Shown here: positions 4,514 through 37,110 of the stretch, piece after piece
How the letters are laid out: each line of letters starts with the position of its first letter
How positions within the stretch are numbered: position 1 is the stretch's first letter
IMG/VR virus record: IMGVR_UViG_3300047557_004020
Location: 1-44,083 of that record
DNA length: 44,083 nucleotides
Reading direction: 5' to 3' (one strand)
Source: a virus
The notes under the pieces: generated by a model
What the model saw: the letters and a program-made list of their open reading frames with translations, nothing else
Database searches by the model: none
What the model was told of the DNA's origin: nothing
Made by a program: the position numbers and the translations under genes

Positions 4514-4531
4514 GACCATCCTTGCTATACT
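4503..4531 (+). promoter_or_regulatory. consensus sigma70 promoter, TTGACA-17-TATACT
   Basis: A perfect -35 TTGACA (4503-4508) and TATACT (4526-4531) are separated by 17 bp, with TGC just before the -10 (extended -10). It overlaps the DUF1825 stop. Transcription would begin near 4538 and read the duplicated leader, the unknown gene at 4576 and gp32. CTTG (4521-4524) and CAAG (4535-4538) flank the -10. Confidence 0.85.
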
Positions 4532-4549
4532 ATCCAAGTAAATCCTCCA

Positions 4550-4578
4550 AATCCAAAACTATCCGAATTAATCTAATG
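4550..4578 (+). repeat. duplicated leader copy 1 (matches the gp32 leader)
   Basis: The 29 bases ending in the ATG at 4576 match 27 of 29 bases ending in the gp32 ATG at 5112 (core AATCCAAAACTATCCGA, then TAATCTAATG). The two differences lie between the halves (AT versus GG). See the finding on shared translational control. Confidence 0.85.
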
Positions 4579-6041: not shown

Positions 6042-6056
6042 CTAAGGTGCTATAAT
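6028..6056 (+). promoter_or_regulatory. sigma70 promoter at the gp32 3' end, TTGCCT-17-TATAAT
   Basis: TTGCCT (6028-6033) and TATAAT (6051-6056) lie 17 bp apart, with TGC before the -10. The predicted start near 6063 falls inside the terminator hairpin that follows, so transcripts from here would lack the 5' arm and escape it. Confidence 0.7.
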
Positions 6057-6057
6057 G

Positions 6058-6084
6058 AGGGGAGTGAGACCTCCCCTCTTTTTT
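6058..6084 (+). terminator. rho-independent terminator after gp32
   Basis: AGGGGAG (6058-6064), loop TGAGAC (6065-6070), CTCCCCT (6071-6077), then CTTTTTT (6078-6084). A 7-bp perfect stem and T-tract that should stop read-through from gp32. Confidence 0.9.
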
Positions 6085-10128: not shown

Positions 10129-10131
10129 ATA
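10124..10131 (+). promoter_or_regulatory. late promoter motif CATAAATA
   Basis: Overlaps the stop of the gp54-like gene and ends 26 bases before the gp26 ATG at 10158. Same spacing class as the other plus-strand sites. Confidence 0.6.
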
Positions 10132-10157
10132 ATCTTAACTGATTTTGATTGGATATT

Positions 10158-10877
10158 ATGCCATTACCAAAAATTGCAACACCTTCGTATACATTAGAAA
10201 TTCCTTCAATTAAAAAAGAAGTTAAATACAGACCTTTTCTTGTTAAGGAAGAAAAGATTCTAATCATTGCAATGGAAAGTGAGGATCCCAAACAAATTGC
10301 TGAGGCTGTTAAAACTGTAATCAGTAATTGTGTTCTTACTAGAGGAATTAAGGTTGAAGAATTATCAACTTTTGATATTGAATATTTGTTTTTAAACATT
10401 CGCGGAAAATCTGTTGGTGAAACAGTAGATGTTTTAATTACATGTCCAGATGATGAAAAAACACAAGTTCCTGTAAGTATTAATCTTGATGATATTAAAG
10501 TTAATATTAGTGAAGATCATTCTAGAGACATTAAGTTGGATGATAGTTTGACTTTAAGAATGAAATACCCTTCGATGAAAGAGTTTATTAAAACTAACTT
10601 CGATAGAAATTTTAATGTAAGTGTTGACGAAACATTTGATTTAATTATTTCTTGCATCGAACAAGTTTATAGTGAAGAAGAATCTTGGTCAGCATCTGAT
10701 TGTACAAAGAAAGAACTTGCAGAATTTATTGAACAACTGAGTTCTAATCAATTTAAACAAATTGAAAAATTCTTTGAAACAATGCCTAAGTTGACACACA
10801 TTTTAAAGATTAAAAATCCAAATACTGAAGTTGAAAGTGAAGTAGTTTTGGAGGGATTATCCAGTTTTTTCGCCTAG
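10158..10877 (+). CDS. 26: gp26 baseplate hub / assembly protein
   Basis: 239 aa from ATG 10158 (MPLPKIATPSYTLEIPSIKKEVKYRPFLVKEEKILIIAMES...). This N-terminus, ending in 'KYRPFLVKEEK.LLIAMES', is the signature of the T4 baseplate family that includes gp26. The rest carries CPDD (in place of the usual C..C) and a helical C-terminus (QLSSNQFKQIEKFFETMPKL). In T4 it acts in hub assembly. The last codons include the slippery heptamer T TTT TTC, followed at once by a stop and the gp51 frame, so it may also be made as a gp26-gp51 fusion. Confidence 0.88.
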   Translation: MPLPKIATPSYTLEIPSIKKEVKYRPFLVKEEKILIIAMESEDPKQIAEAVKTVISNCVLTRGIKVEELSTFDIEYLFLNIRGKSVGETVDVLITCPDDEKTQVPVSINLDDIKVNISEDHSRDIKLDDSLTLRMKYPSMKEFIKTNFDRNFNVSVDETFDLIISCIEQVYSEEESWSASDCTKKELAEFIEQLSSNQFKQIEKFFETMPKLTHILKIKNPNTEVESEVVLEGLSSFFA

Positions 10878-10903
10878 GAATGGCTCATGAAAGTCTTGAG
10901 TCA
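10865..10903 (+). other. predicted -1 programmed frameshift site joining gp26 and gp51
   Basis: The heptamer T TTT TTC (10865-10871) is in the gp26 zero frame (AGT TTT TTC GCC TAG). A -1 slip continues CGC CTA GGA ATG GCT into the gp51 frame (R-L-G-M-A-H...). Nine bases downstream lies a 7-bp hairpin, TGGCTCA (10881-10887) with TGAGTCA (10897-10903), including one G-U pair and a 9-base loop. Heptamer, spacer and stem match the classical layout of stimulatory -1 frameshift signals. Confidence 0.7.
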
Positions 10904-11053
10904 TACTACAAAACTAATTTTTCTCTCATTCAACATCATAAATATTCATTGACTGAAATAGAAAATATGATACCTTGGGAGAGGGAAGTTTATATTTCTT
11001 TACTTAAACAATATATTGAAGAAGAAAACATAAAGAACAACGCAAATGGCTGA
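10880..11053 (+). CDS. 51: gp51 baseplate hub assembly catalyst (57 aa as independent ORF)
   Basis: ATG at 10880, too short for many gene finders. The sequence MAHESLESYYKTNFSLIQHHKYSL...MIPWEREVYISLLKQYI is the gp51-type pattern (HESLE.YY..NF.L..HH.YSL.....PWERE.Y..LL). In T4, gp51 is needed for hub formation but is not in the virion. It is two bases downstream of the gp26 stop in the -1 frame, so it can be reached either by reinitiation or by the frameshift. Overlaps the next gene by 8 bases. Confidence 0.82.
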   Translation: MAHESLESYYKTNFSLIQHHKYSLTEIENMIPWEREVYISLLKQYIEEENIKNNANG

Positions 11054-12674
11054 TTTAGATCCCGAAAAAGTTGGCAGATCAGGAATCGATCCAATCACAG
11101 GATCTATTTTGTCACAGGATCTTAGAAATACTCTATTAAAAAAATCTATATTTGATTCTTCTGTTTTTAGAAATGACTTATTAGCAATTGAAGGTAGAAG
11201 AAGAGAATTTGAAGTTCAAAACACCACGGTAATTCAAAATCAAGAACAAGCATTAATTGGATTTAATTCAAATATTCAATCTTTACGTGCAGATATTGGA
11301 AGACTAGGTGTAGGTCTTTCTAATATTTCTTTGCTTCTTCAGCAGGATTATAATGAAGAGCAATCTAGAATTCGTGCAGAACAAGAAAGGCAAAGGATAT
11401 TAGCAGAAAGACAAGTAAGAATAGGAAAAGAAAACGATATAGAACAAAGAATACAGGGAGCATTATTAGAACCTGTACAAAAATTAAGTCCTAAAGTTTT
11501 TGATATTTTTGGAAATATTAAAAATGCTCTTACATTTTTATTTGCAGGGTGGTTAACAAATCAAACAGTACAAGCATTAAGAGCATCTGAAGAAAATAAT
11601 ACTCAAAAATTTAATGATATTAGATTTAATATTCTCAAAAATGTAGGGATAATTTTCGGTGGATTAGTAGCAATCCGAGCAGGATTTTCTTTAGTTAAAA
11701 GAACAATTGGATCAATTGCAAAGGGATTGACAAATCTTTTAATTGCAAAACCATTATCTGCAGCTGCAAGTTTAATACGCCTTCCAGGAACACCAAAATC
11801 TCCACCACCAAGAACTGCAGGACCAAGAGGTAGTGGAATTCTTAATATGCTTGGCAAATTTGCTACTGGCGTTACTGCATTTATGAATGCAAAAAATGCT
11901 GAATATGTAGATTCAGTAATAGGTGCATTAAGTCTACTTGGTCCAGGGAAACTTTTTAGTATCTTAAGATTAGCATATGCTGCTGATGAAATTGCAGAAG
12001 CATTTGGTATGAATATATTTGGTAAAAATCCTAATGCTGCAAAACAAGCAGAAGAAGTAAAAAGACAAGCAGAACAAGAAGCAAAATCAACGAAACAAAC
12101 GACTTCTACTACAACATCAACACCAAAAGAATCGATGGTTCCTAAACCATCACCTTCAAAAACAACTTCAGAAGAATCTACATCATCACCTCCAACTACA
12201 CAAGCACAACCAAGTGCTGAAATGGTAAAACAATTTGAAATGGCTTGGCAATATAGAAATAATCCAATGGCAAGAGGAAGAATTGAAGGTGCTTGGGAAA
12301 AAATGTCCCCAGAGCAACAACAGCAAGCAAAAGACTGGGCAAAAACAAAAGGTTATGATTGGAGTGAAATGAGATTAAAAGATGCTCCTGCAGTTGCTAC
12401 AATGTCATCACCAATGACTAGTTCTGATCAAAGTTCTCCTGAAAAACCAAAAACTGCAGAAGTGGTTCCTATGCAATCTCAACCACAAAAAGTTGGCCAA
12501 TTGCCTGAACCAAAACCATCTTTGACAATGATCAAAACATCAAGTAATCAGACACAACAACAAAACCCTCCAATTACAAATGGTACTTTGTCTGATGTTC
12601 CATTAATTAACTCTGCAAATCCTGATAATTTTTATATTTTATATTCACAATTAAATTATAATGTAGTAATATAA
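11046..12674 (+). CDS. tape-measure-like tail protein (542 aa)
   Basis: Residues about 50-150 are long charged helices rich in E, Q and R (coiled coil), followed by a hydrophobic segment FLFAGWL (about 160-170), a second hydrophobic stretch (KNVGIIFGGLVAIRAGF), a proline/glycine linker, and a low-complexity Ser/Thr/Pro/Gln C-terminal half. Length is close to T4 gp29 (590 aa) and the gene directly follows gp51, where T4 has 27-28-29. I infer a tape-measure or hub-internal role. It shares its architecture with the next gene, including the F..AGW motif, suggesting an old duplication. No enzyme motif seen. Confidence 0.62.
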   Translation: MADLDPEKVGRSGIDPITGSILSQDLRNTLLKKSIFDSSVFRNDLLAIEGRRREFEVQNTTVIQNQEQALIGFNSNIQSLRADIGRLGVGLSNISLLLQQDYNEEQSRIRAEQERQRILAERQVRIGKENDIEQRIQGALLEPVQKLSPKVFDIFGNIKNALTFLFAGWLTNQTVQALRASEENNTQKFNDIRFNILKNVGIIFGGLVAIRAGFSLVKRTIGSIAKGLTNLLIAKPLSAAASLIRLPGTPKSPPPRTAGPRGSGILNMLGKFATGVTAFMNAKNAEYVDSVIGALSLLGPGKLFSILRLAYAADEIAEAFGMNIFGKNPNAAKQAEEVKRQAEQEAKSTKQTTSTTTSTPKESMVPKPSPSKTTSEESTSSPPTTQAQPSAEMVKQFEMAWQYRNNPMARGRIEGAWEKMSPEQQQQAKDWAKTKGYDWSEMRLKDAPAVATMSSPMTSSDQSSPEKPKTAEVVPMQSQPQKVGQLPEPKPSLTMIKTSSNQTQQQNPPITNGTLSDVPLINSANPDNFYILYSQLNYNVVI

Positions 12675-25200: not shown

Positions 25201-26629
25201 ATCTACAGATTTGTTAACTGCTACTAATTTAACAGTAACAGGAACTGGGACATTTAACGGTAATGTAATATTTGGAAATTCAGTAACTGATACTGTATCA
25301 TTTACATCAAGAATTAATAGTAATGTATTACCATTAGTGGACATAACTTATGATCTTGGATCATCTACTAATAGATGGAATAATGTTTATGCTAATTCTT
25401 TTATTGGTCAATTTTTAGGAAATTCTAGCACAGCATCAAGATTAGCTACTCCAAGAAATATTGATATTGATGGTGATGTACTTGGCGTTGGAATTGGAAT
25501 TACTTTCGATGGAAGTAGAGATGTTACCATTCCAACTGTCTTAAGTACTACTGGTGTTACAGCGGGAACTTATGGATCTTCAACACAAGTGGGGCAGTTT
25601 ACCGTAGATTCTAAAGGAAGAATTACATCAGCATCAAATGTTGCGATTAACTTTAGTACTGCTACTGTTGCACAATCTGATAAAGTTAGAACTCAATCAG
25701 TTGCATCTAATCAAGATTTTTTCCCGACATTTGTTGACAGTGTTAATGCACTTGGTGATTATGAAACCGTATATACTGATGGAGACATAACTTATAATCC
25801 AAGTACTAACTTGTTGAAAGTACAAAATATAAGACCACAATCAATACAAGACTCTGCTGGAGGAACTGGTACAAATAATTTTGTATTAACTGCCACTGGA
25901 TCAGGTGGATGGTCTTGGAGAGCTGCTACAACTTCTGGTGGAACTCCTGCAATTGGTGGAATTACAATTAGAGAAGAAGGAGTAACTGTAGGTACTGCTG
26001 GACAAATTACAACTGTTAATTTTATTGGACCAGGAGTTACAGCAACTGCAGGACCAACAGGAACTGCAAACGTAACATTCGTGCAGCAAGTTGGACCACC
26101 AGGACCACCAGGATCACCTAGTACTGTTGCTGGACCACCAGGACCACCAGGATCACCTAGTACTGTTGCTGGACCACCAGGACCACCAGGACCACCAGGA
26201 TCACCTAGTACTGTTGCTGGACCACCAGGACCACCAGGATCACCTAGTACTGTTGCTGGACCACCAGGACCACCAGGATCACCTAGTACTGTTGCTGGAC
26301 CACCAGGACCACCAGGATCACCTAGTAGTGTTCCTGGACCACCAGGACCACCAGGATCACCAGGATCACCTAGTAGTGTTCCTGGACCACCAGGACCACC
26401 AGGATCACCTAGTAGTGTTCCTGGACCACCAGGACCACCAGGACCACCAGGTGTAACAAATATTACAGTAACTCAAACTGGATATTGCGCTACTCAAACT
26501 CCAATAACTGCAAGTGGATCAACTTTAACATTTTCTCCTAACAGTAATGCTTATGGAAGACGCTGGGTTCAAACGTATACACCAACTACAGAAGGTTGTA
26601 ATGGCGATATTTGGTATCAAATAACATAA
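22271..26629 (+). CDS. giant fibre with LDV repeats and a collagen-like region (1452 aa)
   Basis: Domains in order: globular head (1-170); VGIGTSVPTQELDLNGDLRL unit and paired IYDYTNNPG segment (about 175-215); many short LNVTGITT / LGVTGLTT beta-solenoid turns (about 280-640); 119-residue repeats with STDIVTFNSRVGSGITPS and NRWDTIYSNTFNG (two near-identical, a third diverged, about 637-960); an SFIGQFLGNSSTASRL-type unit; collagen-like Gly-X-Y blocks (1275-1394) broken by STVA or SSVP; and a 58-residue C-terminal cap containing two cysteines and three tryptophan/tyrosine clusters. Likely a trimeric long fibre. The collagen part would form a triple helix. Confidence 0.82.
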   Translation: MPRYLSGRSKRTPQSALSDSRFRYLSIADAEPNLGDPVAPGEFPPFGQQYQIVSVEGYPGERYWVPIGGGLIPGSITVFDESNLVGGISSTTQLNFVGLAITALGNSTPSPGYAVTVRVFAPGNNGELLFNLSDDFGTSPLLSFDNNIGILTAGKSIIVGSGGTVLNATLSGLVGIGTSVPTQELDLNGDLRLRGTIYDYTNNPGITGDVLIKNNFGGLTWVNQSSIRAGAGGTYRNVQFHNSSGLVDGANIFVYNEVDRRVGIGSTLPQFLLDVIGYSRFTGQTEIGFLNVTGITTLSSLGVSGASTTRNLRVTGIATIPTLIGTNANFSGIVTAVKFIGNIDVVDLNVTGIATISTLGVTGLTTTRNLEVTQSTTLNRLNVSGISTFGSQVIITNLNVTGVTTIGNSVVISANNIKTTSGNLNIDSLGGTTQINDALYVNDSTQSTSPNTGALVVDGGVGIGNNLYVAGNVNLSTSGGITTTGGDLYVGGNLYTTGDQYFDEVFARNGYFTGILSTRNFESAGISSLKSTTIIGGANSTGNSQTILQVVGVNSGAYIGGNLGIGSIIPTSKLDVVGDIKVSGISTFNNTLNVISAGANINNIRIGITNSNQIDTSTGNLTLTSTGGQVTISSRLIVTGVSTFNGNVTLGDASTDIVTFNSRVGSGITPSTNGTLNIGSPSNRWDTIYSNTFNGTFVGTASSSDTIRTVSTAINSTFFPTFVRDNNSNAAYEEVYTDSGISYNPGSDLLSLTNLVVTGVSTFNGNVTLGDASTDIVTFNSRVGSGITPSTNGSLNLGSPTNRWDTIYSNTFNGTFVGTASSSDTIRTVSTTTNSTFFPTFVRDNNSNAAYEEVYTDSGISYNPGSDLLSLTNLVVSGISTFGDASTDIVTFNSRVGSGIIPSTNGTLDIGSPSNRWDTIYSNTFNGTFVGTASSSDTIRTVSSTSSTPLFPTFVITNSATDIYQRVYTDGGVTYTPSTDLLTATNLTVTGTGTFNGNVIFGNSVTDTVSFTSRINSNVLPLVDITYDLGSSTNRWNNVYANSFIGQFLGNSSTASRLATPRNIDIDGDVLGVGIGITFDGSRDVTIPTVLSTTGVTAGTYGSSTQVGQFTVDSKGRITSASNVAINFSTATVAQSDKVRTQSVASNQDFFPTFVDSVNALGDYETVYTDGDITYNPSTNLLKVQNIRPQSIQDSAGGTGTNNFVLTATGSGGWSWRAATTSGGTPAIGGITIREEGVTVGTAGQITTVNFIGPGVTATAGPTGTANVTFVQQVGPPGPPGSPSTVAGPPGPPGSPSTVAGPPGPPGPPGSPSTVAGPPGPPGSPSTVAGPPGPPGSPSTVAGPPGPPGSPSSVPGPPGPPGSPGSPSSVPGPPGPPGSPSSVPGPPGPPGPPGVTNITVTQTGYCATQTPITASGSTLTFSPNSNAYGRRWVQTYTPTTEGCNGDIWYQIT
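24181..24894 (+). repeat. 357-bp in-frame tandem duplication in the fibre gene
   Basis: Copy 1 (24181-24537) and copy 2 (24538-24894) are nearly identical, period 357 bp (119 codons). A third, diverged and shortened copy starts at 24895 (STDIVTFNSRVGSGIIPS). The very low divergence of copies 1 and 2 suggests recent amplification. Confidence 0.9.
26093..26452 (+). repeat. collagen-like Gly-Pro-Pro repeat tract
   Basis: Encodes blocks of GPPGPPGSP (sometimes one extra triplet) separated by four-residue breaks, STVA five times and then SSVP three times. GGACCACCAGGACCACCAGG is reused throughout. Codons are uniform, so the DNA is a minisatellite prone to slippage. Confidence 0.95.
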
Positions 26630-26650
26630 TTTTACATTAGATTATTTAAC

Positions 26651-28189
26651 ATGGCAGCATCATTTATTAAAAAATCGGACGGGAATTATTATCTAAGACT
26701 AACTGGTTTTACCAATTACGTTAAATTTGCTGCGGTTTCTAAAGCAGGTAATGTTTATACCTTTTTTATTAATGGAACTGCTTATGTTTCAAAACCGAAA
26801 GATGATGAAGGTGCAACCCATTACACATCAAGTGCATCACCAATTCCTAGTGGTGGTGTATTAGCAGATAATAGATTTCCTGGTACAGAAACCTTACATT
26901 TCTTTTCCGGTTCTGGTACTAGGGATTATTTATTGTCTTTTACCTCAAGTCCAGTACCAGGAACTAGATTTTACTTAGGTGGAGAAGCATTAACTTGGGG
27001 TGGATATGCTTGGCCAGGTGATGGTTATATTGAAAATAATATTGGTGTTGGTGTAAAAACAGGAGGATCCTGGAAAAACGCAGGTAATCTTTTTTTAAAA
27101 ACACTTGATGAATGGAAAGAAGTTGCTACAGGGTGGATAAAAGTAAGTGGAGTTTGGAGAAAGTTTTATCAAAACTACGGAAATTCCAGTTGGATTAATA
27201 TGCTTGAGGGTACTGATGATGCAATTGACTTTGGTATTAAAGTCGTACCTCCAACAGAGTTTACAATTACTATTAGTTCTAACACTACTAACTTAAACTT
27301 AAAAAGTTCATTTGACACTACATTTGGTTCTGGTGCTTGGGCATCCAGTGTTCCAAAAAGAGTTATTATTAATTCCGGAGTTATCGTAGGTTCAACAAGT
27401 TCTTCTGGTTATGCAATCAATATTCCATCAGGAATGGGTGGAACCTTAAGAATTGATAACAATGGTTCTATTCAAGGTGCTGGTGGTGCTGCTAATAGTG
27501 GTACTGGAGGAAGTGCTATCTTTGTTGGATCAGCAGTATCTATTAATAATGTAGGGTCTATCTATGCTGGTGGAGGTGGTGGAGGTGCAGGTGGTAATGG
27601 TGGTCAAGGATCTTTTACTTATACGGTAGTTAATGGACTAGGATACTCTGGAATTAGGGGTACATCTGTATCTGGTTGCAATCAATCGAGTTGGTTAGAA
27701 GGTTGTGCTCAAGCTTGTAGACAAAGATTTGGAAATTCAATTGGAGGATCAACAGTATATGCATCCACTCCTTGTGGATATACAAGTATAGGACTCGATC
27801 TTTGTTTTCCAGTTTGCAAATACCAGTGTACAGGTAGGTTTACTTCAAACACTACAGCATCAGAATCTTGGACTTGTGCTTATAATTCGACAGCTACAGC
27901 AATAACTTCAGGGGGAACTGGAGGTTCTGGGGGTGTAGGTCGAGGATATAATCAAGCACCAACTGCTGGTCTTGGTGGATCCGGTGGTGGTACTAATGCT
28001 GGTACAGGCGGTACAGGTGGTAATGGTGGTGAATGGGGTGCCTCAGGAACTGCCGGTTCCGCTGGAACTAATGGTAATTATACTGCAGGTTCTGCTGGTG
28101 GTCCAGGTGGATTAGCAGGATTTTATGTTGTAAATAACTCTAGTGTTACTTGGATTAATACCGGAACAAGAGCAGGTAGAGTGGTATAA
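26651..28189 (+). CDS. glycine-rich adhesin tip protein with Cys-rich insert (512 aa)
   Basis: The N-terminal half is globular (WGGYAWPGDGYIENN, WKEVATGWIKVSGVWRKFYQ). From about residue 195 a beta-region (PTEFTITISSNTTNLNL) leads to glycine-rich loops (GGGGGGAGGNGGQG; later GGSGGGTNAGTGGTGGNGG), like the polyglycine-II tips of gp38-type adhesins. Between them lies a block with eight cysteines (about 335-420: SGCNQ, EGCAQAC, TPCGY, LCFPVCKYQC, TCAY). The C-terminus is NTGTRAGRVV. Likely the receptor-binding tip of the fibre encoded just upstream. Disulfide or metal binding by the insert is inference. Confidence 0.75.
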   Translation: MAASFIKKSDGNYYLRLTGFTNYVKFAAVSKAGNVYTFFINGTAYVSKPKDDEGATHYTSSASPIPSGGVLADNRFPGTETLHFFSGSGTRDYLLSFTSSPVPGTRFYLGGEALTWGGYAWPGDGYIENNIGVGVKTGGSWKNAGNLFLKTLDEWKEVATGWIKVSGVWRKFYQNYGNSSWINMLEGTDDAIDFGIKVVPPTEFTITISSNTTNLNLKSSFDTTFGSGAWASSVPKRVIINSGVIVGSTSSSGYAINIPSGMGGTLRIDNNGSIQGAGGAANSGTGGSAIFVGSAVSINNVGSIYAGGGGGGAGGNGGQGSFTYTVVNGLGYSGIRGTSVSGCNQSSWLEGCAQACRQRFGNSIGGSTVYASTPCGYTSIGLDLCFPVCKYQCTGRFTSNTTASESWTCAYNSTATAITSGGTGGSGGVGRGYNQAPTAGLGGSGGGTNAGTGGTGGNGGEWGASGTAGSAGTNGNYTAGSAGGPGGLAGFYVVNNSSVTWINTGTRAGRVV

Positions 28190-28192
28190 ATA
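28185..28192 (+). promoter_or_regulatory. late promoter TATAAATA
   Basis: Exact TATAAATA overlapping the stop of the adhesin gene, ending 23 bases before the ATG at 28216. Candidate driver of the repeat protein, zinc-ribbon protein and oxygenase genes. Confidence 0.7.
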
Positions 28193-28215
28193 TCAAAAAG
28201 CGTTTTTAAGACATT

Positions 28216-28968
28216 ATGAAATACATAATTAAAGAGGTATTGCCTGCTCAAATATTGGTTGAATTTGAGGACGAATCTAGGGCATTAGTTCCAATTTCTC
28301 CAGAAGCAACACCAGAAGAAATTGATCATGCTGTTGCTCAATATGATCCCGACTTTTTACCGATTCCAGAGAATCTTATCAATCAAAATATTTCTGTTGG
28401 TGAAGAGAGAGAATCTAAAAAATTAGACACTGTAAATACTCAATTTGCAGTTGGAAATAATACAACTACTGATACCAATACAATAGAAGAATTTATTCCA
28501 ACCCAATTTAATAGTATTGAATACTTATTAAATTCTATCAATCCAATTAATTTAGCTTTGGCAAATTATTACGCAGAGCAAGGTGATACAAGAATTAAAG
28601 AAGCATTATACTCAAAAGTTTTGGAGTATGTAAATGTAACTAATTTAACAGTAGAAAAAATACTTGAAGATATAAATTTAAATCCCGAAGATATTTTGTC
28701 CCAAGCAGAGTTAGAATTGAATGGAGAAATCACTCCAACTCCAGAAGATACTTCAATCCAAACTCCAGAAGAAGTAATTGCAACTCCAGAAGAAGTAATT
28801 GCAACTCCAGAAGAAGTAATTGCAACTCCAGAAGAAGTAATTGCAACTCCAGAAGAAGTAATTGCAACTCCAGAAGAAGTAATTGCAACTCCAGAAGATA
28901 CTTCAATCCAAACTCCAGAAGAAGTAACTCCTCAAGTACAGGAAGAAACAAATGCAGAGCAACCCTGA
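28216..28968 (+). CDS. acidic repeat protein with TPEEVIA heptads (250 aa)
   Basis: Residues 1-60 look like a small folded domain (MKYIIKEVLPAQILVEFEDESRALVPISPEA). Residues 90-170 are acidic and helical (NSIEYLLNSINPINLALANYYAEQGD...). The C-terminal quarter is low-complexity with six identical TPEEVIA heptads flanked by TPEDTSIQ units. Strongly acidic overall. Its place between fibre genes and the oxygenase suggests a late or virion-associated protein. No family function recognised. Overlaps the zinc-ribbon gene by 17 bases. Confidence 0.65.
   Translation: MKYIIKEVLPAQILVEFEDESRALVPISPEATPEEIDHAVAQYDPDFLPIPENLINQNISVGEERESKKLDTVNTQFAVGNNTTTDTNTIEEFIPTQFNSIEYLLNSINPINLALANYYAEQGDTRIKEALYSKVLEYVNVTNLTVEKILEDINLNPEDILSQAELELNGEITPTPEDTSIQTPEEVIATPEEVIATPEEVIATPEEVIATPEEVIATPEEVIATPEDTSIQTPEEVTPQVQEETNAEQP
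28738..28911 (+). repeat. 21-bp tandem repeat (6 identical units) with 24-bp flanking units
   Basis: A 24-bp unit (28738-28761), six identical 21-bp units ACTCCAGAAGAAGTAATTGC+A (28762-28887), and another copy of the 24-bp unit (28888-28911). DNA identity of all six units implies recent expansion. Reading frame is kept. Confidence 0.95.
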
Positions 28969-29113
28969 AAATAGAGAAGCGATTGATAAAATAAAAATTT
29001 GTTTACAATGTGAACATTTTTTCAAACCAACTCGCCAATGTAAAAAATGTGGGTGTTTTATGCCTCTTAAGGTAAGAATACCTGGTCAAAAATGTCCCGT
29101 TGATAAGTGGTAA
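28952..29113 (+). CDS. small zinc-ribbon protein (53 aa)
   Basis: ATG at 28952 inside the previous gene, TAA at 29111-29113. Cysteines CLQC (residues 17-20) and CKKCGC (33-38), plus a late C in KCPVDKW, make one CxxC...CxxC zinc-binding module with an extra pair. Similar short 'CxxCxxF...CxxCxCFMxxK' proteins are common in T4-like cyanophages and resemble DUF6171. Role unknown. It ends four bases before the oxygenase start, so both are probably made from the same message. Confidence 0.75.
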   Translation: MQSNPENREAIDKIKICLQCEHFFKPTRQCKKCGCFMPLKVRIPGQKCPVDKW

Positions 29114-29117
29114 CTAA

Positions 29118-29714
29118 ATGAATGATTTGATTCAGATTATTAAAATTCTTGATGAAAATGAATTAAAAATTATTAATTCATACATTGATGAGTTAACTTT
29201 TCAAGAAAATACTGTTTTTGATAAAGATGGATTATCTAAAATTGACACTTCAGTAAGATCAAGTCTTGGATCTTCTATGAATGAAGAGCATGAAGCAACT
29301 AAACTTCTTCATCAAAGAATAAATGAATCTTTAATTACATATAAGGAAAAAGTTATTCAAATTAATGAAATGTTTCAATATTACCCTGTTCCAGGGGGAT
29401 ATTCAACTACCTGTTATAGGGAATCAATTCAAGTTTTAGAATATCATCCAGATCAAGAATACAAATTTCATCACGACTCATCAAATAATCCAAATTCAAA
29501 AGAATATCATCGTCATATTAGTGTTGTTGTTTATCTTAATGATGATTTTAGTGGAGGAGGAACACAGTTTCCTCATGAAACATATAAACCATTACCAGGA
29601 TATGGTTTAATTTTTCCATCAAATTGGTGCTATCCCCATTCGGGACAAAAAGTTTTGAAGGGGAAAAAAAGAGTTGCGGTCACTTGGTACTACGTGACCG
29701 ACCACAGTGCTTGA
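29118..29714 (+). CDS. 2OG-Fe(II) oxygenase, prolyl-4-hydroxylase-like
   Basis: 198 aa. Iron ligands H118-x-D120 (FHHD) and H174 (YPHSG), and the 2-oxoglutarate-binding R185 eleven residues later (KKRVAVTWYYV), are in the canonical order for the P4H/double-stranded beta-helix family. SVVVYLNDDFSGGGTQFP is the usual core between them. These enzymes hydroxylate prolyl or other side chains using O2 and 2-oxoglutarate. The substrate is unknown. A collagen-like fibre encoded 2.5 kb upstream, rich in X-Pro-Gly, is the most obvious local candidate. The stop codon overlaps the next promoter's -35. Confidence 0.9.
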   Translation: MNDLIQIIKILDENELKIINSYIDELTFQENTVFDKDGLSKIDTSVRSSLGSSMNEEHEATKLLHQRINESLITYKEKVIQINEMFQYYPVPGGYSTTCYRESIQVLEYHPDQEYKFHHDSSNNPNSKEYHRHISVVVYLNDDFSGGGTQFPHETYKPLPGYGLIFPSNWCYPHSGQKVLKGKKRVAVTWYYVTDHSA

Positions 29715-29961: not shown

Positions 29962-30147
29962 ATGAAAACTCTTACAGTTCAAGAATTGCAAGAAAAATTT
30001 GAATATTACCTTGATAGGGTTGAGACTGGTGAGTCCTTCCTTATCAAGAGTCAATATGGTGATGCTATGTTAATTCCTTATAATAATGGTGAGGAAGAAA
30101 TTGACGACCTGATACGAATACATACGGATCACGAAGAAGGTTGTTGA
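29962..30147 (+). CDS. Phd/YefM-like antitoxin homologue, no toxin beside it
   Basis: 61 aa beginning MKTLTVQELQEKFEYYLDRVETGESFLIKSQYGDAMLIPY, which is the N-terminal Phd/YefM DNA-binding fold almost by the book (V.EL......L..V..GE.FLI....G..M..IPY). The C-terminal half, which binds toxin in true antitoxins, is short and acidic (EEEIDDLIRIHTDHEEG). It could neutralise a host toxin, or act only as a small repressor of nearby palindromic promoters. The latter is attractive because inverted repeats frame the -10 both before and after it. Both are inference. Confidence 0.78.
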   Translation: MKTLTVQELQEKFEYYLDRVETGESFLIKSQYGDAMLIPYNNGEEEIDDLIRIHTDHEEGC

Positions 30148-30186: not shown

Positions 30187-30278
30187 GGGGGCATAGTTCA
30201 ACGGTTAGAACAGCAAGCTTATACCTTGTATTAGCGCCAGATTAGCGCGAGGTCCTGGTTCGAATCCAGGTGTCCCTA
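30187..30278 (+). tRNA. tRNA with anticodon UAU (Ile?) and expanded variable arm
   Basis: Acceptor GGGGGCA (30187-30193) pairs with TGTCCCT (30271-30277), A 30278 being the discriminator. The D stem is GTTC/GAAC. The anticodon stem GCAAG/CTTGT has loop CTTATAC, giving anticodon TAT (30220-30222). The T arm is CCTGG-TTCGAAT-CCAGG. The variable region (30230-30253) is 24 bases and consists of ATTAGCGCCAG followed by its near copy ATTAGCGCGAG, so it looks like an 11-bp tandem duplication. UAU would read AUA, a codon the AT-rich late genes use often. A long variable arm is not usual for isoleucine, so amino-acid identity is uncertain. CCA is not encoded. Confidence 0.8.
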
Positions 30279-30280
30279 TC

Positions 30281-30426
30281 TGCTTATCCATTTTGTAGTG
30301 GGTTTTAGAGGGTAAGCAACAGTAAACCTACTTGAAAAAAGGAGAGTGAAAAACCCCAGCTGCAAGTCGGTGTGAAACAGACCTATGACTTGTATGCGCT
30401 TCTGTTTCACTGTATGGATCTCTCCT
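30281..30426 (+). ncRNA. putative structured RNA with two pseudoknots between tRNAs
   Basis: 5' part: TGCTTATCC (30281-30289) pairs with GGGTAAGCA (30310-30318), and loop bases AGTGGGTTT (30297-30305) pair with AAACCTACT (30324-30332), an H-type pseudoknot. 3' part: AGGAGAG (30340-30346) pairs with CTCTCCT (30420-30426). Inside it, CAAGTC (30363-30368)/GACTTG (30387-30392) crosses the perfect 10-bp stem GTGAAACAGA (30372-30381)/TCTGTTTCAC (30401-30410), a second pseudoknot. No ORF of note, no tRNA T-loop. It should be cotranscribed with the flanking tRNAs. Family not identified; manA and wcaG RNAs of cyanophages are candidates to test. Confidence 0.62.
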
Positions 30427-30429
30427 ACT

Positions 30430-30502
30430 GCTGGTTTGGCCCTCTGGTGAAGGCAATCTGCTCATAACAGATAGAAGGTCGGATCGTAACCGACAACCAG
30501 CA
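30430..30502 (+). tRNA. tRNA with anticodon CAU (Met, or Ile2)
   Basis: Acceptor GCTGGTT (30430-30436) pairs with AACCAGC (30495-30501), discriminator A. The D stem is GCC/GGC, the anticodon stem ATCTG/CAGAT has loop CTCATAA (anticodon CAT 30463-30465), the variable loop is AGAAG, and the T stem GTCGG/CCGAC has loop ATCGTAA. The T loop departs from the usual TTCRANY, which would make standard scanners score it low. CAU could be elongator Met or a lysidine-modified Ile tRNA. Confidence 0.8.
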
Positions 30503-30503
30503 C

Positions 30504-30537
30504 TTGACTATAAACACTTTTTGTGTTATTATAGTCA
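30504..30537 (+). promoter_or_regulatory. promoter TTGACT-17-TATTAT within a large inverted repeat
   Basis: TTGACT (30504-30509), 17 bp, TATTAT (30527-30532). TGACTATAA (30505-30513) and TTATAGTCA (30529-30537) are perfect 9-bp arms, with inner ACAC/GTGT around TTTTT. It could act as operator, or as a processing hairpin between two tRNAs. Confidence 0.65.
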
Positions 30538-30544
30538 TATACAA

Positions 30545-30628
30545 GGGGCGGTGGTGGAATTGGTAGACACCCCAGACTTAAAATCTGTTGAGCGTATGCT
30601 CGTGCGGGTTCAAGTCCCGCTCGCCCTA
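30545..30628 (+). tRNA. tRNA-Leu (UAA)
   Basis: Class II tRNA. Acceptor GGGGCGG (30545-30551) pairs with TCGCCCT (30621-30627), discriminator A. The D loop has GGAATTGGTAG, the anticodon loop CTTAAAA (30577-30583) gives anticodon TAA (30579-30581), the variable arm is GAGCGTATGCTC, and the T arm is GCGGG-TTCAAGT-CCCGC. Reads UUA and UUG, which suits the AT-rich phage genes. Confidence 0.95.
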
Positions 30629-30644
30629 TTTTAAGTTCGTTCCT

Positions 30645-30652
30645 TATAAATA
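30645..30652 (+). promoter_or_regulatory. late promoter TATAAATA
   Basis: Exact match, 17 bases after the tRNA-Leu and 20 bases before the HNH gene start. Gives the endonuclease gene its own late-type start. Confidence 0.7.
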
Positions 30653-30672
30653 GTTGCAGGGAACGAACTATT

Positions 30673-31236
30673 ATGACCATCAAACATAAACATCATATTA
30701 TCCCCAGACATATGGGTGGGAGTGATAATAAAGAAAATCTAATAGAAGTTACAGTCGAGAAACACGCTATGTTTCATTATTGTAACTGGAAATTATGGGG
30801 AAAGGAAGAAGATAGAATTGCTTGGAAAACTTTAACTGGTCAAATGACTTTAAGTGAAGCAAAGTATGAAGCAATAAAACTTGGCGCTAGAAAAACTGGT
30901 CAAGTTATGAAAGATAAAATGAAGGACCAAGAAACAAAAGAAGAATGGTCTAATATGATAAAAGGATTTTGGGAGAGGGAAGAATATAGGAAAAAACAAA
31001 TACCCCGTCTGTTAGAACTACAAAAACATGCAAGTGTTTTAGGAAATAGTGGAGATGCTTTGAAAAGAAAAAAAGAAACTTATAAAAAAATAGGTCATCA
31101 ACAGGGAAATAATAATTCTCAATATGGTTCTATGTGGATTACTGATGGAACAAGAGAAGGAAATCGTAAAATAAACAAAAATGATCCTATTCCAGAGGGA
31201 TATGGAAAAGGTAGAGTTTGTAAGAATAAAAAATAA
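30673..31236 (+). CDS. free-standing HNH homing endonuclease
   Basis: 187 aa. The N-terminal KHKHHIIPRHMGGSDNKENLIEVTVEKHAMFH carries the HNH core (H-H, N, H spacing) preceded by the short basic start usual in phage enzymes. The middle is helical and lysine-rich. The C-terminal NSQYGSMWITDGTREGNRKINKNDPIPEGYGKGR is the conserved DNA-recognition tail of phage SegF/HNH-type homing enzymes. These cut cognate alleles and spread their own gene. Sited directly beside the tRNA cluster, a common insertion place; the tRNA duplication may relate to its activity (inference). Confidence 0.88.
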   Translation: MTIKHKHHIIPRHMGGSDNKENLIEVTVEKHAMFHYCNWKLWGKEEDRIAWKTLTGQMTLSEAKYEAIKLGARKTGQVMKDKMKDQETKEEWSNMIKGFWEREEYRKKQIPRLLELQKHASVLGNSGDALKRKKETYKKIGHQQGNNNSQYGSMWITDGTREGNRKINKNDPIPEGYGKGRVCKNKK

Positions 31237-31584: not shown

Positions 31585-34500
31585 ATGCCCCTGAACAAGC
31601 TGGATAATTTTATCAAGAATACTGAAGGTCGTATTTTATATGTAAATCCAAACGACCTTGATTCGACTGATAGTATAGAAAATCAAGGTAACTCTCTTAC
31701 TCGACCATTTAAAACAATTCAGAGAGCACTTTTAGAAGCAGCAAGATTTTCTTATATTGCAGGAAATAACAACGATTTAGTAGAAAAAACCACAATTCTA
31801 TTATTTCCTGGAGAACATCTTATTGATAACCGTCCAGGTTGGGCAATTTATAATAACAATGGTGCAAAAGCAGTTTCAAGATCTGGAGCAGAGTCTGTAG
31901 CATCATCCGTCTTTTCTCTTGGATTAGATTCTATTTTTGATCTAAATCAAGAGGATAATATACTTTATAAGTTTAATAGTTTTTATGGCGGTGTTGTAGT
32001 ACCAAGAGGTACTTCAATTGTTGGTCTTGATTTAAGAAAAACAAAAGTACGTGCAAAATATGTTCCAAACCCAACAGATTCTTCTGTACCAAAATCTTCA
32101 ATTTTTAAGATTACTGGTGCTTGTTATTTTTGGCAATTTTCTTTATTTGATGCAGATCCTAGTGGATTAGTTTATACAAATCCAGATAATTTTACTAGTA
32201 CCTATCAATCATCTCCAAATTTCTCACATCATAAATTAACTTGTTTTGAGTTTTGTGATGGCGTAAACAATATTGGATCATATGGTTTAACAGACCTTGA
32301 TATGTATTATAGCAAGGTCTCAAATGCTTATAATTCATTTAGAGCAATTGATGATAATGACAAATATCCAGAAAATCCTAATGGATTTGCTAAAAGAAAT
32401 CCAGAATGGGAAATTGTTGGTGCATTTGCAACAGATCCGATAGAAATTTCATCTATTTTTGCAGGGACAGGATCTGTAGCAACTTCTACTGTTACGGTAA
32501 TAACAAAAACACCACATGGATTAAATGCAGGAACTCCAATTAAAATTAAAGGAGTTACAGGATCTGGATTAACCTCACCATATAATGTTTCAACAACAGT
32601 ACAAAATATTTTAAATTCTACTTCATTCACTTATTTACTACCTGCAATTGAATCATATCCAACAATCAATCCAAGTCCAAGTGCAAGTTCATCAACAGTA
32701 ACGATTGAAACAGATACAGTATCTGGGGCATCTCCTTATATTTTCAACTGTTCTTTAAGATCAGTATGGGGCATGAATGGTCTTCATGCTGATGGTAGTA
32801 AAGCATCTGGATTTAGAAGTACTGTAGTAGCTCAATTTACCGCAGTATCTCTACAAAAAGATGATCGTGCTTTTGCAAAATATGATAAATCATCAAGAAC
32901 TTATCAATCTGTATCTCCAATAACAACAGTTTATGGTTCAAGTTTACCTGATGGTGCATCACAAACTGACTCAAATAAAGTTTATCATTTAGATCCTGAT
33001 GCAGTTTATAGACAAGGATGGGAATCTAGTCATATAAAAATTACAAATGATGCTTTCATACAGATTGTTTCTGTTTTTGCAATTGGATTTAATAAACATT
33101 TTGATGCCGAAACTGGTGGTGATGCATCAATTACAAACTCCAACTCCAACTTTGGACAAATCTCTTTAAATTCATCAGGATTTAAAAAGGAAGCATTTGA
33201 TAAAGATGATAAGGCTTTCATCACTTCAATTATTCCACCAAGAGCAATTGATGAAACGGAAGATGTCATTGAATGGTTATCAATTGATGTTGGTCTTACA
33301 ACAACATCCAGAGGATCTACTGGCATCTCAAGTCACCTATATCTTTACGGATTTACTTCTAAAGATGCTCCACCATCTACCTTAACGCAAGGATATCGAA
33401 TTGGTGCAAGATTAAACGATAAATTGTATGTAAATCTTGGTGGTTCAATTAAAGAAGCATCAATTTTCATGTGCAATAATCAAATTAGTTCAACTGGTTT
33501 GACAACAGCATTAGGTACAACAAGTTCTGTTAAATTATATGATGTAATTTCAGGTCCAACAGGAAATTCTTTTACAATTGGATCTAACAATTTACTAACA
33601 GGTGAAAAAGTTAAAATTATCAGTGATGATGGAGACCTTCCAGAAAATATTGAAGAACATGCAACTTATTATGTAATTAAAGATGGTAGCACTGCAATTA
33701 AGTTAGCTTCTTCATTTACGAATGCAACTCAATCTGAGGAAATTACTGTATATGGTGGATCAAATCTTCATATTTTAAGTCGTGTTTCAGACAAAGATTC
33801 TGGAGATCTTGGATCACCCATTCAATTTGATGCACAAAATAATAATTGGTTTATTCATGTAAATGCAAATAATGAAATTTATAACACTTTATCAATAGGT
33901 GGAACATCTCTTTATGGAGAAACGACTGATTTAAGTTATGTAAATAGAATTTCTGATGAAAGAAGTTTAGATGAAAAAATTTATAAAGTTAGAGTAGTAA
34001 TTCCAAAAGAATTGCCAAATGCAAAAGACCCCGAATCAGGATTTATCATTCAAGAATCAAGTACTACAGGTGCAAGAGATAGTTTTGATTTTACAAGATC
34101 AAGTATTGGAAGTACTGATTATGGTTATAATAGAAATCCAAGATTTATTTCAACTTGTACAGTAAGTTCTGGAACAGTTACTGTATTTACAGATTTACCA
34201 CACAATCTTCAAGTTGGCGAACTAGTAAATATCAGAAATGTATCTTGTACAAATAATCTAAATGGTGTTTATAATATTGGATATAATGGAAGATTTGCTG
34301 TAAGAAATATTACTGATGCAAATACATTTACATATTCAACCACAGATACTGAAGGAAATCTTCATAATCCTGGAATATTTGCCAATGATGTATCGATAAG
34401 AAATGAAAATCTACCAAGATTTGAGAGAAATGATTGGAGAGGAAATCTTTTTGTATACAGAAATGAAGTTATTTCTCCATATATTTTTAATCAACAAGAT

Positions 34501-37110
34501 GGAATTTATCACTTATACGTTTTAAATTCAAATAATAAAATTGCACAGGAATTTACAAATCTCGAATTTGGACAACTGCCATCAGATCTTTATCCACAAT
34601 TAGATCGTGACAATATCGATCCAAATCCAAATTCTGCTAAAACATTTGCAAAAAGATCTCCGATTGGTGCAATTGTTACTAATGACCTTAAAAAAAGTAT
34701 TACTAGAGAATCTGCAGATCTTCTTCTGAAGGAAGTTGGACTTGGAATTACACTTTCTTCTGTGTCTTCAAGTTCCATAAGTGCAACTTTAACTTTCCCA
34801 AGATTCCATGGTTTTTCTGGTATTGTAACTGGTTCAATTACTTCTGGGGCAAATTATATTCCATTATCAGGGATTGCAACATACCATAATGTTAAACTTT
34901 TGAATGGATCGCAAACTGGATCTTGGAATGGAGCAACTGCAAGAGTTGTTGTTTCTGGAGGAGCAGTTGTATCTGTAAATATTATTTCACCAGGATCTGG
35001 ATATAGTGCTGGGGCATTATATTTTGATCAATCAAGAATTGGAACAGGAAATGGAAATGCCAGATATACAATCACTTCATCTACAATCTCATCAAATGTT
35101 GATGATGTAATTCAAGTTACTGGATATGGAACTACTGCAGATCAATATTATAGGATTACTTCTGTTCCATCCTCAACTACAATTTCCATTGCAAAAACTT
35201 CTGGAGATCCTGTAATTCTTTCAAGTCAATATGTATTTTTAGTCGGACCTTCTGTAAGAATTAGTGCATCAACTCCATCTTACAATTCTACAACAAAAAT
35301 TTCAACATTTACAACAACTTCCGCACATGGACTTCTTGTAGGAAATAGATTCCAAGTAAATGATTCAAGTAATAATAACTTAGGAAACTATATTGTTGAA
35401 AGAAGAATTAGTCCAACACAATTTACTGCGATTACCAATTCACAATTATCAGCAGCAAATGGTTACATACTAAAACATGCCCTCTCATCAAATGAAGCAT
35501 CCTCTGATGAAAGAGGAGAAAACTTTGGAGTTCGTCATATAACATTTTATGATTCTGAAAGATTTACTCTCACATCTGCTTTAACAACAGGAACGACAAT
35601 TAATTTTAGTAGTTCTGGAAGTGGAACTGCGCGAAGATTGCCACTTGGATCATATATCCAAATTGATAGTGAAATCATGAGAGTCGTAAGTAGCAATAAC
35701 TCTACTTCAGCAACTGTGATTCGTGGTGCTCTTGGAACAAATCAAGAGTCTCATGATGCAAATTCTTTAATTCGTAAAATTAATCCTATAGCAATTGAAT
35801 TCCGCAGACCATCTATTCTTCGTGCCTCTGGACATACTTTTGAATATCTTGGTTATGGTCCTGGTAATTATTCAACAGGTCTACCACAAGTTCAAGTTAA
35901 AACTTTAAATGATCAAGAGAATTTCTTAGCAAATTCACAAGAAAGGTCTTGTGGTGTTGTTGTTTACACTGGAATGAACAATAATGGTGATTTTTATAGT
36001 GGAAATACCAAAACTTCATCAACAAGTGGTGAAGTTGTTTCATATGATATTCCAAAACCAACTGTAACTGGAGAAGATCCAAATAGATTAAGTGTTGTAT
36101 TTGATGAAGTTACAGTAAAAGAAAGACTTCTTGTTGAAGGTGGTGTTTCTGGTCAAGTTCTTTCTCAGTTTGATGGTCCAGTCACATTTAACAAAGAAAT
36201 TAGGGTAAAAGCACAAAGTAGATTTAACAGTACAGTAAGATTAACTCAAGGAAATCAATCAACTTCAACTACCACAGGAAATCTTATTGTTGCTGGTGGA
36301 GTTGGAATTGGTGGTAATTTAAATGTTGGTGGAAATGCTAATTTTACAGGAGATTCAGTTTTTGATGGAAACCAAACTGTAGATGGAAACTTAACAGTTA
36401 GAGGAAATACATCTTTAGGTAATGAAAGCACTGATACAACTATAATTCGCGGATCTTTAACAGCAAATAATAATTTAACTGTTAATGGTAATACAACTCT
36501 TGGTGATGGATTATCTGACACAACTAACATTACTGGATCTTTAAATGCCAATTCTAATGTTTATGTTGCTGGAATCACAACTCTAGGTGATTCATCATCT
36601 GACACAACTAACATTACTGGATCTTTGATTGTCACTAATAACCTTAATGTTTCTGGAGTCACAACCTTAGGTAATGCATTAACTGACTCAACTATTATTA
36701 ATGGTACTTTATCTGTTACAAGTAATTTAAGTGTCAATGGTAATACAACACTAGGTAATGCGTCAACTGATACTACTACTGTTAATGGTAATTTATATGT
36801 AACTCAAGACATTTATGCATTCTATACAGCATCAGATAAAAATTGGAAAGATAATGTCGTCCCAATTCAAAATGCTTTGGATAAAGTAATTTCTATTAGT
36901 GGAAATACTTTTGATTGGAATGAAAAAGCACCACAATCAGGAAAAGATGTTGGTGTAATAGCACAGGAAATTCAAAAAATTCTTCCTGAAGCAGTGTCAG
37001 AACGAGAAGATGGACACCTTTCAGTTTCTTACCAAAAACTTGTTCCTCTTCTAGTTGAAGCAATTAAAGAATTAAAACAAGAAATTGATGATCTAAAAAA
37101 ATCCAAATAA
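31585..37110 (+). CDS. giant fibre/spike protein with S74 intramolecular chaperone (1841 aa)
   Basis: Opens LYVNPNDLDSTDSIENQGNSLTRPFKTIQRALLEAARF, a pectin-lyase-type beta-helix start. Two PHGL/PHNL 'G....I..V' domains (about 310 and 870), a GSGYSAG...GTGNGNARY module (about 1130) and HTFEYLGYGPGNYSTGLPQ (about 1420, shared with the 850-aa fibre) follow. Then come five 26-residue LTVNGNTTLG...SDTTxIxGSL repeats. The end is a Peptidase_S74 endosialidase chaperone: S1750 and K1755 (SDKNWK) form the Ser-Lys dyad with the usual +5 spacing, then FDWNEKAPQSGKDVGVIAQEIQKILPEAV and a coiled coil. Cleavage before S1750 would release a 92-residue chaperone after trimer folding. Confidence 0.88.
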   Translation: MPLNKLDNFIKNTEGRILYVNPNDLDSTDSIENQGNSLTRPFKTIQRALLEAARFSYIAGNNNDLVEKTTILLFPGEHLIDNRPGWAIYNNNGAKAVSRSGAESVASSVFSLGLDSIFDLNQEDNILYKFNSFYGGVVVPRGTSIVGLDLRKTKVRAKYVPNPTDSSVPKSSIFKITGACYFWQFSLFDADPSGLVYTNPDNFTSTYQSSPNFSHHKLTCFEFCDGVNNIGSYGLTDLDMYYSKVSNAYNSFRAIDDNDKYPENPNGFAKRNPEWEIVGAFATDPIEISSIFAGTGSVATSTVTVITKTPHGLNAGTPIKIKGVTGSGLTSPYNVSTTVQNILNSTSFTYLLPAIESYPTINPSPSASSSTVTIETDTVSGASPYIFNCSLRSVWGMNGLHADGSKASGFRSTVVAQFTAVSLQKDDRAFAKYDKSSRTYQSVSPITTVYGSSLPDGASQTDSNKVYHLDPDAVYRQGWESSHIKITNDAFIQIVSVFAIGFNKHFDAETGGDASITNSNSNFGQISLNSSGFKKEAFDKDDKAFITSIIPPRAIDETEDVIEWLSIDVGLTTTSRGSTGISSHLYLYGFTSKDAPPSTLTQGYRIGARLNDKLYVNLGGSIKEASIFMCNNQISSTGLTTALGTTSSVKLYDVISGPTGNSFTIGSNNLLTGEKVKIISDDGDLPENIEEHATYYVIKDGSTAIKLASSFTNATQSEEITVYGGSNLHILSRVSDKDSGDLGSPIQFDAQNNNWFIHVNANNEIYNTLSIGGTSLYGETTDLSYVNRISDERSLDEKIYKVRVVIPKELPNAKDPESGFIIQESSTTGARDSFDFTRSSIGSTDYGYNRNPRFISTCTVSSGTVTVFTDLPHNLQVGELVNIRNVSCTNNLNGVYNIGYNGRFAVRNITDANTFTYSTTDTEGNLHNPGIFANDVSIRNENLPRFERNDWRGNLFVYRNEVISPYIFNQQDGIYHLYVLNSNNKIAQEFTNLEFGQLPSDLYPQLDRDNIDPNPNSAKTFAKRSPIGAIVTNDLKKSITRESADLLLKEVGLGITLSSVSSSSISATLTFPRFHGFSGIVTGSITSGANYIPLSGIATYHNVKLLNGSQTGSWNGATARVVVSGGAVVSVNIISPGSGYSAGALYFDQSRIGTGNGNARYTITSSTISSNVDDVIQVTGYGTTADQYYRITSVPSSTTISIAKTSGDPVILSSQYVFLVGPSVRISASTPSYNSTTKISTFTTTSAHGLLVGNRFQVNDSSNNNLGNYIVERRISPTQFTAITNSQLSAANGYILKHALSSNEASSDERGENFGVRHITFYDSERFTLTSALTTGTTINFSSSGSGTARRLPLGSYIQIDSEIMRVVSSNNSTSATVIRGALGTNQESHDANSLIRKINPIAIEFRRPSILRASGHTFEYLGYGPGNYSTGLPQVQVKTLNDQENFLANSQERSCGVVVYTGMNNNGDFYSGNTKTSSTSGEVVSYDIPKPTVTGEDPNRLSVVFDEVTVKERLLVEGGVSGQVLSQFDGPVTFNKEIRVKAQSRFNSTVRLTQGNQSTSTTTGNLIVAGGVGIGGNLNVGGNANFTGDSVFDGNQTVDGNLTVRGNTSLGNESTDTTIIRGSLTANNNLTVNGNTTLGDGLSDTTNITGSLNANSNVYVAGITTLGDSSSDTTNITGSLIVTNNLNVSGVTTLGNALTDSTIINGTLSVTSNLSVNGNTTLGNASTDTTTVNGNLYVTQDIYAFYTASDKNWKDNVVPIQNALDKVISISGNTFDWNEKAPQSGKDVGVIAQEIQKILPEAVSEREDGHLSVSYQKLVPLLVEAIKELKQEIDDLKKSK

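Follow-up and report, generated by a model that had tools for sequence, protein, structure and literature searches.

A viral record of IMG/VR (IMGVR_UViG_3300047557_004020, 44,083 bases, classed linear; analysed over its whole length and hereafter called the window) raises the question of what a 2-oxoglutarate (2OG)-Fe(II) oxygenase does among phage tail-fibre genes, on the same strand as a fibre with a collagen-like stretch. The late region of the window is of T4-like cyanophage type, with a single-strand binding protein, a tail tube, a baseplate hub and several tail fibres. The oxygenase and collagen genes were found to be paired across related phages, the catalytic residues of the enzyme are intact, and its sequence and predicted fold place it in the prolyl-hydroxylase class. 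We infer its substrate, product, timing and effect as follows, with a probability of about 0.7: as a prolyl 4-hydroxylase (P4H)-like enzyme, it would hydroxylate the collagen of its own phage's fibre and so stabilise the helix of the stalk.

The fibre gene was confirmed as an open reading frame (ORF) on the plus strand at the place given in the initial annotation (Table 1). It encodes 1452 residues, with PHROG matches that are weak and mostly of unknown function. About 120 residues of GPPGPPGSP blocks had been described, and these are present in the C-terminal part, but they are not continuous. The 30 Gly-X-Y triplets of the stretch fall into nine runs of 3-4 with the four residues STVA or SSVP between them, and the triplet register shifts at each 13-residue unit (GPPGPPGSP plus STVA or SSVP). 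In the DNA, Tandem Repeats Finder (TRF) reports 8.7 tandem copies of a 39-bp unit with 88% matches at 26092-26448, and the pattern for GPPGPPGxP occurs ten times at 26093-26448, against 0.00 expected from 100 dinucleotide shuffles. Proline occupies the Y position in 29 of the 30 triplets, in agreement with the initial annotation, and the X position in 20, while lysine is found at neither. The repeated triplets rich in X and Y proline make the fibre collagen-like; because Pfam Collagen (PF01391) gave no match at E ≤ 1 and the longest run is four triplets, it is termed collagen-like with interruptions and not a member of Pfam Collagen. The GPPGPPGSPSTVA repeat is a candidate peptide substrate for the enzyme. 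An ORF overlapping the repeat (26091-26456, frame +3, beginning MDHQDHQ) was rejected as a mere shadow of it.

The oxygenase ORF is complete and lies 2.5 kb downstream on the strand of the fibre, as had been reported. Its product matches Pfam 2OG-FeII_Oxy_3 (PF13640) at 7.9e-15 and belongs to phrog_61 (8.8e-37); no glycosyltransferase domain was found in it with Pfam. Of the HxD...H...R motif assigned initially, the HxD...H part is intact (H118, D120, H174), but the basic residue is K184, ten residues past H174, and not an arginine, R185 being next to it. All five residues are invariant in 22 aligned relatives. K184 aligns with a lysine of Bacillus anthracis P4H, at the position of the 2OG-binding lysine of prolyl 4-hydroxylases. 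Using a profile of the 22 relatives, all PDB chain sequences were searched at E ≤ 0.001, and all nine distinct matches are prolyl hydroxylases; PiuC was missing among them. The closest solved sequence is B. anthracis P4H (3itq, 5hv0, 5iax; 2.4e-15), and the others include Chlamydomonas P4H, the viral P4H of chlorovirus PBCV-1 (vCPH; 6e-8), human P4HA2 and prolyl 3-hydroxylase 1. The B. anthracis enzyme shares the lysine at the 2OG position, but it is encoded by a bacterial chromosomal gene and has ∼20-23% identity to the window enzyme over Foldseek alignments. According to an excerpt of PMC8968730, it hydroxylates (PPG)n with the Y position favoured.

An AlphaFold2 model of the window enzyme (pLDDT 88.8, pTM 0.87) has the double-stranded beta-helix fold with the HxD...H iron triad, as compared using Foldseek and VIA-align. 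The top Foldseek match is an algal P4H with a (Ser-Pro)5 peptide (3gze, 7.9e-12), vCPH (5c5t) ranks third and PHD2 comes after. VIA-align gave a Z of 19.1 for Trichoplax PHD, 19.0 for Pseudomonas putida PPHD with EF-Tu (4iw3), on which PPHD acts, 18.7 for algal P4H (rmsd 2.6, 171 aligned), 18-19 for PHD2 and 18.1 for vCPH (rmsd 2.6, 163 aligned); PiuC (9ghl), at 16.4, is under both P4H and PHD. Since entries within 1 Z are treated as tied, the fold is assigned to the prolyl-hydroxylase class with its kind unspecified. Sequence and predicted fold agree in pointing to the prolyl hydroxylases.

When viral contigs were scanned with the enzyme, 26 relatives at 48-78% identity were obtained. These, five loci of isolate or single-cell phages and the window make up 32 enzyme loci, and in every one of them collagen lies on the same strand, at most 10 kb away. 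Over all fetched loci, the subfamily, defined by at least 150 bits, has 70 distinct members, and collagen of at least 10 triplets lies near 61 of them. The nine oxygenases without nearby collagen have 107-1797 bases upstream; where the upstream sequence reaches at least 2 kb, 56 of 56 have collagen. A scan of cellular genomes returned three loci (L395-L397; locus numbers carry the prefix L) from a single-cell assembly labelled Pelagibacter and a Euryarchaeota metagenome-assembled genome, with collagen in the retrieved part of all three, and these are most likely phage contigs rather than cellular ones.

Whether the fibre region always holds collagen was asked with a neutral marker, the phrog_529 fibre, using queries from the window, P-SSM2 and ACG-2014f. 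After duplicate removal there were 191 marker loci, 107 of them with at least 6 kb upstream; each scan keeps the best 80 rows, so that the frequencies are not population frequencies. With collagen set at 15 triplets or more, both genes occur in 33 of the 107 loci, collagen alone in 24, neither in 50 and the enzyme alone in none (Fisher 2e-12). The co-occurrence called for as a check in the initial annotation is therefore strongly borne out, at 33 of 33 loci with the enzyme versus 24 of 74 without it. When at least six X or Y prolines are required, the figures become 33 of 33 versus 13 of 74 (2.4e-17). One locus scored as enzyme-negative with 7.1 kb upstream (L290) has a near twin (L288) with the enzyme 9.4 kb upstream. 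Linkage through a shared fibre region alone was rejected, as the enzyme-negative marker loci mostly have no collagen or Pro-poor collagen.

The association was also seen from the collagen side. In a DNA scan for GPPGPPG, 80 of 120 loci were examined and 46 collagen-bearing records were hand-picked by triplet count; nine of the 46 have the enzyme above 270 bits, by coordinates on the collagen's strand and within ∼6.2 kb, compared with two of 49 marker records (taken from 80). Among 23 complete phage genomes, the subfamily is present in P-SSM2 (320 bits), ACG-2014f (241) and S-CAM7 (218), and the best oxygenase copies in the other 20 reach at most 67 bits. The Pfam Collagen cut-off is passed in all three, versus three of the 20 (S-CRM01, S-PRM1 and S-CAM9), which are not a random sample because they were drawn from records holding some distant relative of the enzyme. 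In P-SSM2, five collagen ORFs are located just upstream of the oxygenase gene (PSSM2_031), which is labelled PiuC in its record. Collagen ORFs of this locus (L252) include 3268-5067 and 9418-11115.

The composition of the collagens follows the enzyme as well. Median Y-proline per triplet is 0.294 in 43 loci with the enzyme versus 0.020 in 31 without it (Mann-Whitney U test, 5.5e-9), and X-proline 0.519 versus 0.022; the collagens of the enzyme-negative loci are mostly of the GxQ or GxK type. In the S-CRM01, S-PRM1 and S-CAM9 collagens Y-proline is only 0.02-0.05. About half of the X positions in the collagens of S-PRM1 (L419) and S-CAM9 (L420) are proline, with Y-proline at 0.02, and these two phages have two other 2OG oxygenase genes ∼1.5-2 kb downstream of the collagen. 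L100 appeared as an exception, being Pro-rich by threshold without the enzyme; on reading, a judgement made after it had been seen, its protein is a poly-Gly fibre and not a collagen. It was counted as Pro-rich in the tree test below and excluded from later counts. A distant 2OG oxygenase lies just 5' of this fibre (L100:4668-6140) in a phage without the collagen-linked subfamily, and the record has one TGA within the matched stretch.

The N-terminal part and the C-terminal domain of the window fibre recur in close relatives with different middles, its orthologues being found in L035/L002, L004, L039, L043, L071 and L074. Pro collagen and enzyme are present together in L035/L002, L004 and L074. 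L039, the closest fibre orthologue without the enzyme (identity to the window 80-83% in the marker and 64% over 475 aa of the fibre N-terminus), has 90 triplets with no proline and mostly Gln at Y; L071 has a GxQ-type collagen and no enzyme. In L043 the fibre is present together with the genes corresponding to those at 28216 and 29766 of the window, and collagen and enzyme are both missing. The two genes are linked, and are gained and lost together. A FastTree phylogeny of 106 marker loci requires at least 15 switches of the enzyme state and 11 of the Pro-rich state. When independent pairs that differ in Pro-rich collagen are compared, the enzyme differs in the same direction in 5.9 of 8 on average and in the opposite direction in 0.0 (median p 0.03); for pairs that differ in the enzyme, the direction of collagen presence agrees in 5.3 of 12 and is reversed in 0.0 (median p 0.06). 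The tree-aware direction is consistent and its power modest. An artefact of shared ancestry was set aside on the ∼15 changes of enzyme state and the lack of an opposite trend, with sign tests that are themselves modest (median p 0.03-0.06).

Collagen P4Hs act on prolines of unfolded chains, and the hydroxylation stabilises the triple helix. In the window phage, the oxygenase and the fibre would be produced together from the late region, and prolines in the Gly-Pro-Pro and Gly-Ser-Pro blocks, mostly those at Y, would be hydroxylated before or while three fibre chains fold. The reaction would consume O2 and 2OG, with 4-hydroxyproline as the probable product, and the short, interrupted triple helix would become stable enough to serve as a fibre stalk. 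Where relatives have collagens rich in Lys or Thr, a similar modification of these by the same enzyme family is probable. A possible further step is that fibre quality would follow the O2 and 2OG of the host.

Several observations weigh against this explanation. Eleven of the 33 enzyme-positive marker loci are without Pro-rich collagen, about a third of enzyme-bearing loci have collagens rich in Lys, Thr or Gln, and three of the 32 enzyme loci (L020, L021 and L003) have one Y proline each. The share of prolines at Y versus X shows no significant difference between loci with and without the enzyme (p 0.1 to 0.44), so specificity for Y is not shown. Y-proline had been named initially as the substrate context; Pro-rich collagens do track the enzyme, but Y alone proved too narrow, given the minority of enzyme-bearing loci where Lys, Thr or Gln abounds in the collagen and few prolines stand at Y. 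The collagen runs of the window are just 3-4 triplets long, and fold similarity, with Z values within 1, cannot split P4H from PHD-type enzymes. Distant 2OG oxygenases near the marker also track collagen in enzyme-negative loci (7 of 9 versus 17 of 65, p 0.004), so that the enzyme-collagen link may in part reflect the fibre region itself. Modification of collagen by 2OG oxygenases may extend beyond this subfamily, or the region may gather such genes.

The best surviving alternative, though an unlikely one, is a broader collagen hydroxylase, akin to the lysyl hydroxylases, that acts not mainly on proline but on Lys in GxK, or on a residue subsequently glycosylated. Y-position Lys is present in some relatives, with 112 in L005, 64 in each of L013 and L014 and 63 in L255 among the enzyme-bearing loci, but it is absent from the window collagen, and in the pooled loci GxK is at least as common without the enzyme (1120 of 3857 triplets) as with it (752 of 5501). 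The enzyme tree follows collagen class beyond chance, with 6 changes for the K class (shuffled mean 15, minimum 11) and 11 for the P class (shuffled mean 18, minimum 13); this is weak evidence, because the K class shares ancestry and the tree has long branches. In ACG-2014f and S-CAM7 the gene order is collagen, glycosyltransferase(s), enzyme and fibre, and the collagen is Thr-rich, which also speaks for such a hydroxylase. The restriction of the PDB profile matches to prolyl hydroxylases counts against it. The genes between collagen and oxygenase in these two loci encode group-1 glycosyltransferases (L253:10917-12008; L254:10021-11094 and 11091-11993), a placement that would fit collagen threonine glycosylation. 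A collagen lysyl hydroxylase/glycosyltransferase of mimivirus was reportedly described by Luther in 2011. It resembles the present case as a viral modifier of its own virus's collagen, and the ACG-2014f and S-CAM7 oxygenase adjoins a glycosyltransferase; it differs in that it was unmatched in the PDB sequence search, and in that the window has an enzyme with no glycosyltransferase domain and a collagen with no Lys. In many collagen loci a second, distant 2OG-Fe(II) oxygenase adjoins the main one (Table 1), as if two hydroxylases served one fibre.

Less probable still is that the enzyme is unrelated to collagen and comes from an auxiliary gene for iron uptake (PiuC), DNA repair or 2OG sensing that sits in an exchangeable fibre region by chance. 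In excerpts of the literature, DNA repair or 2OG/NtcA (PMC3037559, PMC9146016) and PiuC iron uptake (PMC13184970) are given as the roles of cyanophage 2OG oxygenases, the P-SSM2 records carry the PiuC label, and linkage alone could arise by cassette exchange because neighbouring fibre genes are often swapped. Against this stand the presence of both genes in every long locus, the lack of Pro-rich collagen in most enzyme-negative neighbours, the comparison of orthologous fibres (L039 and L043 versus L035, L004 and L074), and the position of PiuC, under the Z of 18-19 of the prolyl hydroxylases and outside the profile matches. The window enzyme is a member of the phrog_61 or 'PiuC' oxygenases of cyanophages, and its P-SSM2 orthologue is annotated as PiuC, but only the subfamily of at least 150 bits is tied to collagen here, the other copies in the 20 isolates falling at 67 bits or below. 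A passage of PMC12774648 describes cyanophage 2OG oxygenases as structurally like human EGLN3. Very improbable is a prolyl hydroxylase acting mainly on a host protein or on another protein of the phage, with collagen secondary. The best structural matches do include PPHD with EF-Tu, and the title of 5v7y reports binding and modification of EF-Tu by B. anthracis P4H, but gain and loss in step with Pro-rich collagen are not predicted on this reading.

Beyond the hydroxylation of fibre collagen favoured here, a more general picture is put forward tentatively, at somewhat less than even odds. Marine T4-like phages would exchange cassettes consisting of a collagen stalk and a dedicated 2OG oxygenase, sometimes with glycosyltransferases. 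Pro-rich collagen would be kept only with the hydroxylase, GxQ or GxK collagens would be the fallback without it, enzyme subclades would be tuned to the Y residue (Pro, Lys or Thr), and the receptor-binding fibres would in consequence depend on O2 and 2OG while infection proceeds.

No paper tying a tailed-phage oxygenase to the collagen of its fibre was found in the open-licence PubMed Central literature. To our knowledge, no earlier collagen-modifying enzyme of tailed phages has been described, and the present one, if the favoured reading is true, would be the first. A viral collagen prolyl hydroxylase is already known from PBCV-1 (5c5t/5c5u). It is likewise virus-encoded and matches the window enzyme in profile and fold, but it belongs to a virus of a eukaryotic alga, while here a tailed phage of cyanobacterial type has the enzyme beside its candidate substrate in a fibre cluster. 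The general idea is already in print, since a passage of PMC9301287 mentions that viral collagen can be part of a tail fibre and that the use of a viral prolyl 4-hydroxylase 'remains cryptic'. Hydroxylation of the phage collagen, if true, would contradict the statement in an excerpt of PMC3368898 that collagen prolyl hydroxylases are absent from bacteria and viruses. It would also make phage attachment proteins dependent on the oxygen and the carbon/nitrogen state of the host. Few unexplained genes are as common in cyanophages as those of 2OG-Fe(II) oxygenases, and one subfamily would gain a concrete and checkable job.

Table 1. Coordinates of the fibre-region features of the window and of second oxygenases in related loci (prefixed L).
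Feature	Position	Strand	Evidence
Tail-fibre-like protein with collagen stretch, 1452 aa	22271..26629	+	ORF
Collagen-like part of fibre	26093..26452	+	DNA pattern, TRF, triplet count
Short C-terminal fibre domain 3' of collagen	26453..26629	+	55-60% identity in L035, L039, L074
Gly-rich tail-fibre-like protein, 512 aa	26651..28189	+	phrog_10745 1.5e-48; phrog_11439 tail fiber 2e-11
250-aa protein with TPEEVIA repeat	28216..28968	+	ORF, TRF
2OG-Fe(II) oxygenase, prolyl-hydroxylase-like, 198 aa (H118, D120, H174, K184)	29118..29714	+	PF13640, phrog_61, PDB profile, AlphaFold2
Tail fibre phrog_529, 1841 aa, neutral co-occurrence marker	31585..37110	+	
Second oxygenase	L009:9357-9959		
Second oxygenase	L017:5824-6426		
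Second oxygenase	L074:7353-7895		
Second oxygenase	L024:9127-9729		
Second oxygenase	L020:2767-3402		
Second oxygenase	L022:1202-1792		

The gene of the 250-aa protein adjoins the oxygenase in L035/L002 and L074, and occurs without it in L043. Its TPEEVIA repeats are encoded by a 21-bp tandem repeat of 7.8 copies (28761-28927). Downstream of the oxygenase lies a Phd-like antitoxin gene (29962-30147; phrog_375, 1.6e-9), which several relatives keep and beside which no toxin gene was noticed. Elsewhere in the window, a 542-aa ORF in the tail gene cluster (11046-12674) has zero PHROG matches at E ≤ 0.001, and a Mom-like DNA modification protein is encoded at 6055-6675 (phrog_1384, 6.7e-35) and matches HNH endonucleases more weakly. 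Within the fibre region, three tRNA genes (Ile-TAT, Met-CAT and Leu-TAA) are followed by an HNH homing-endonuclease-like ORF (together 30187-31236).

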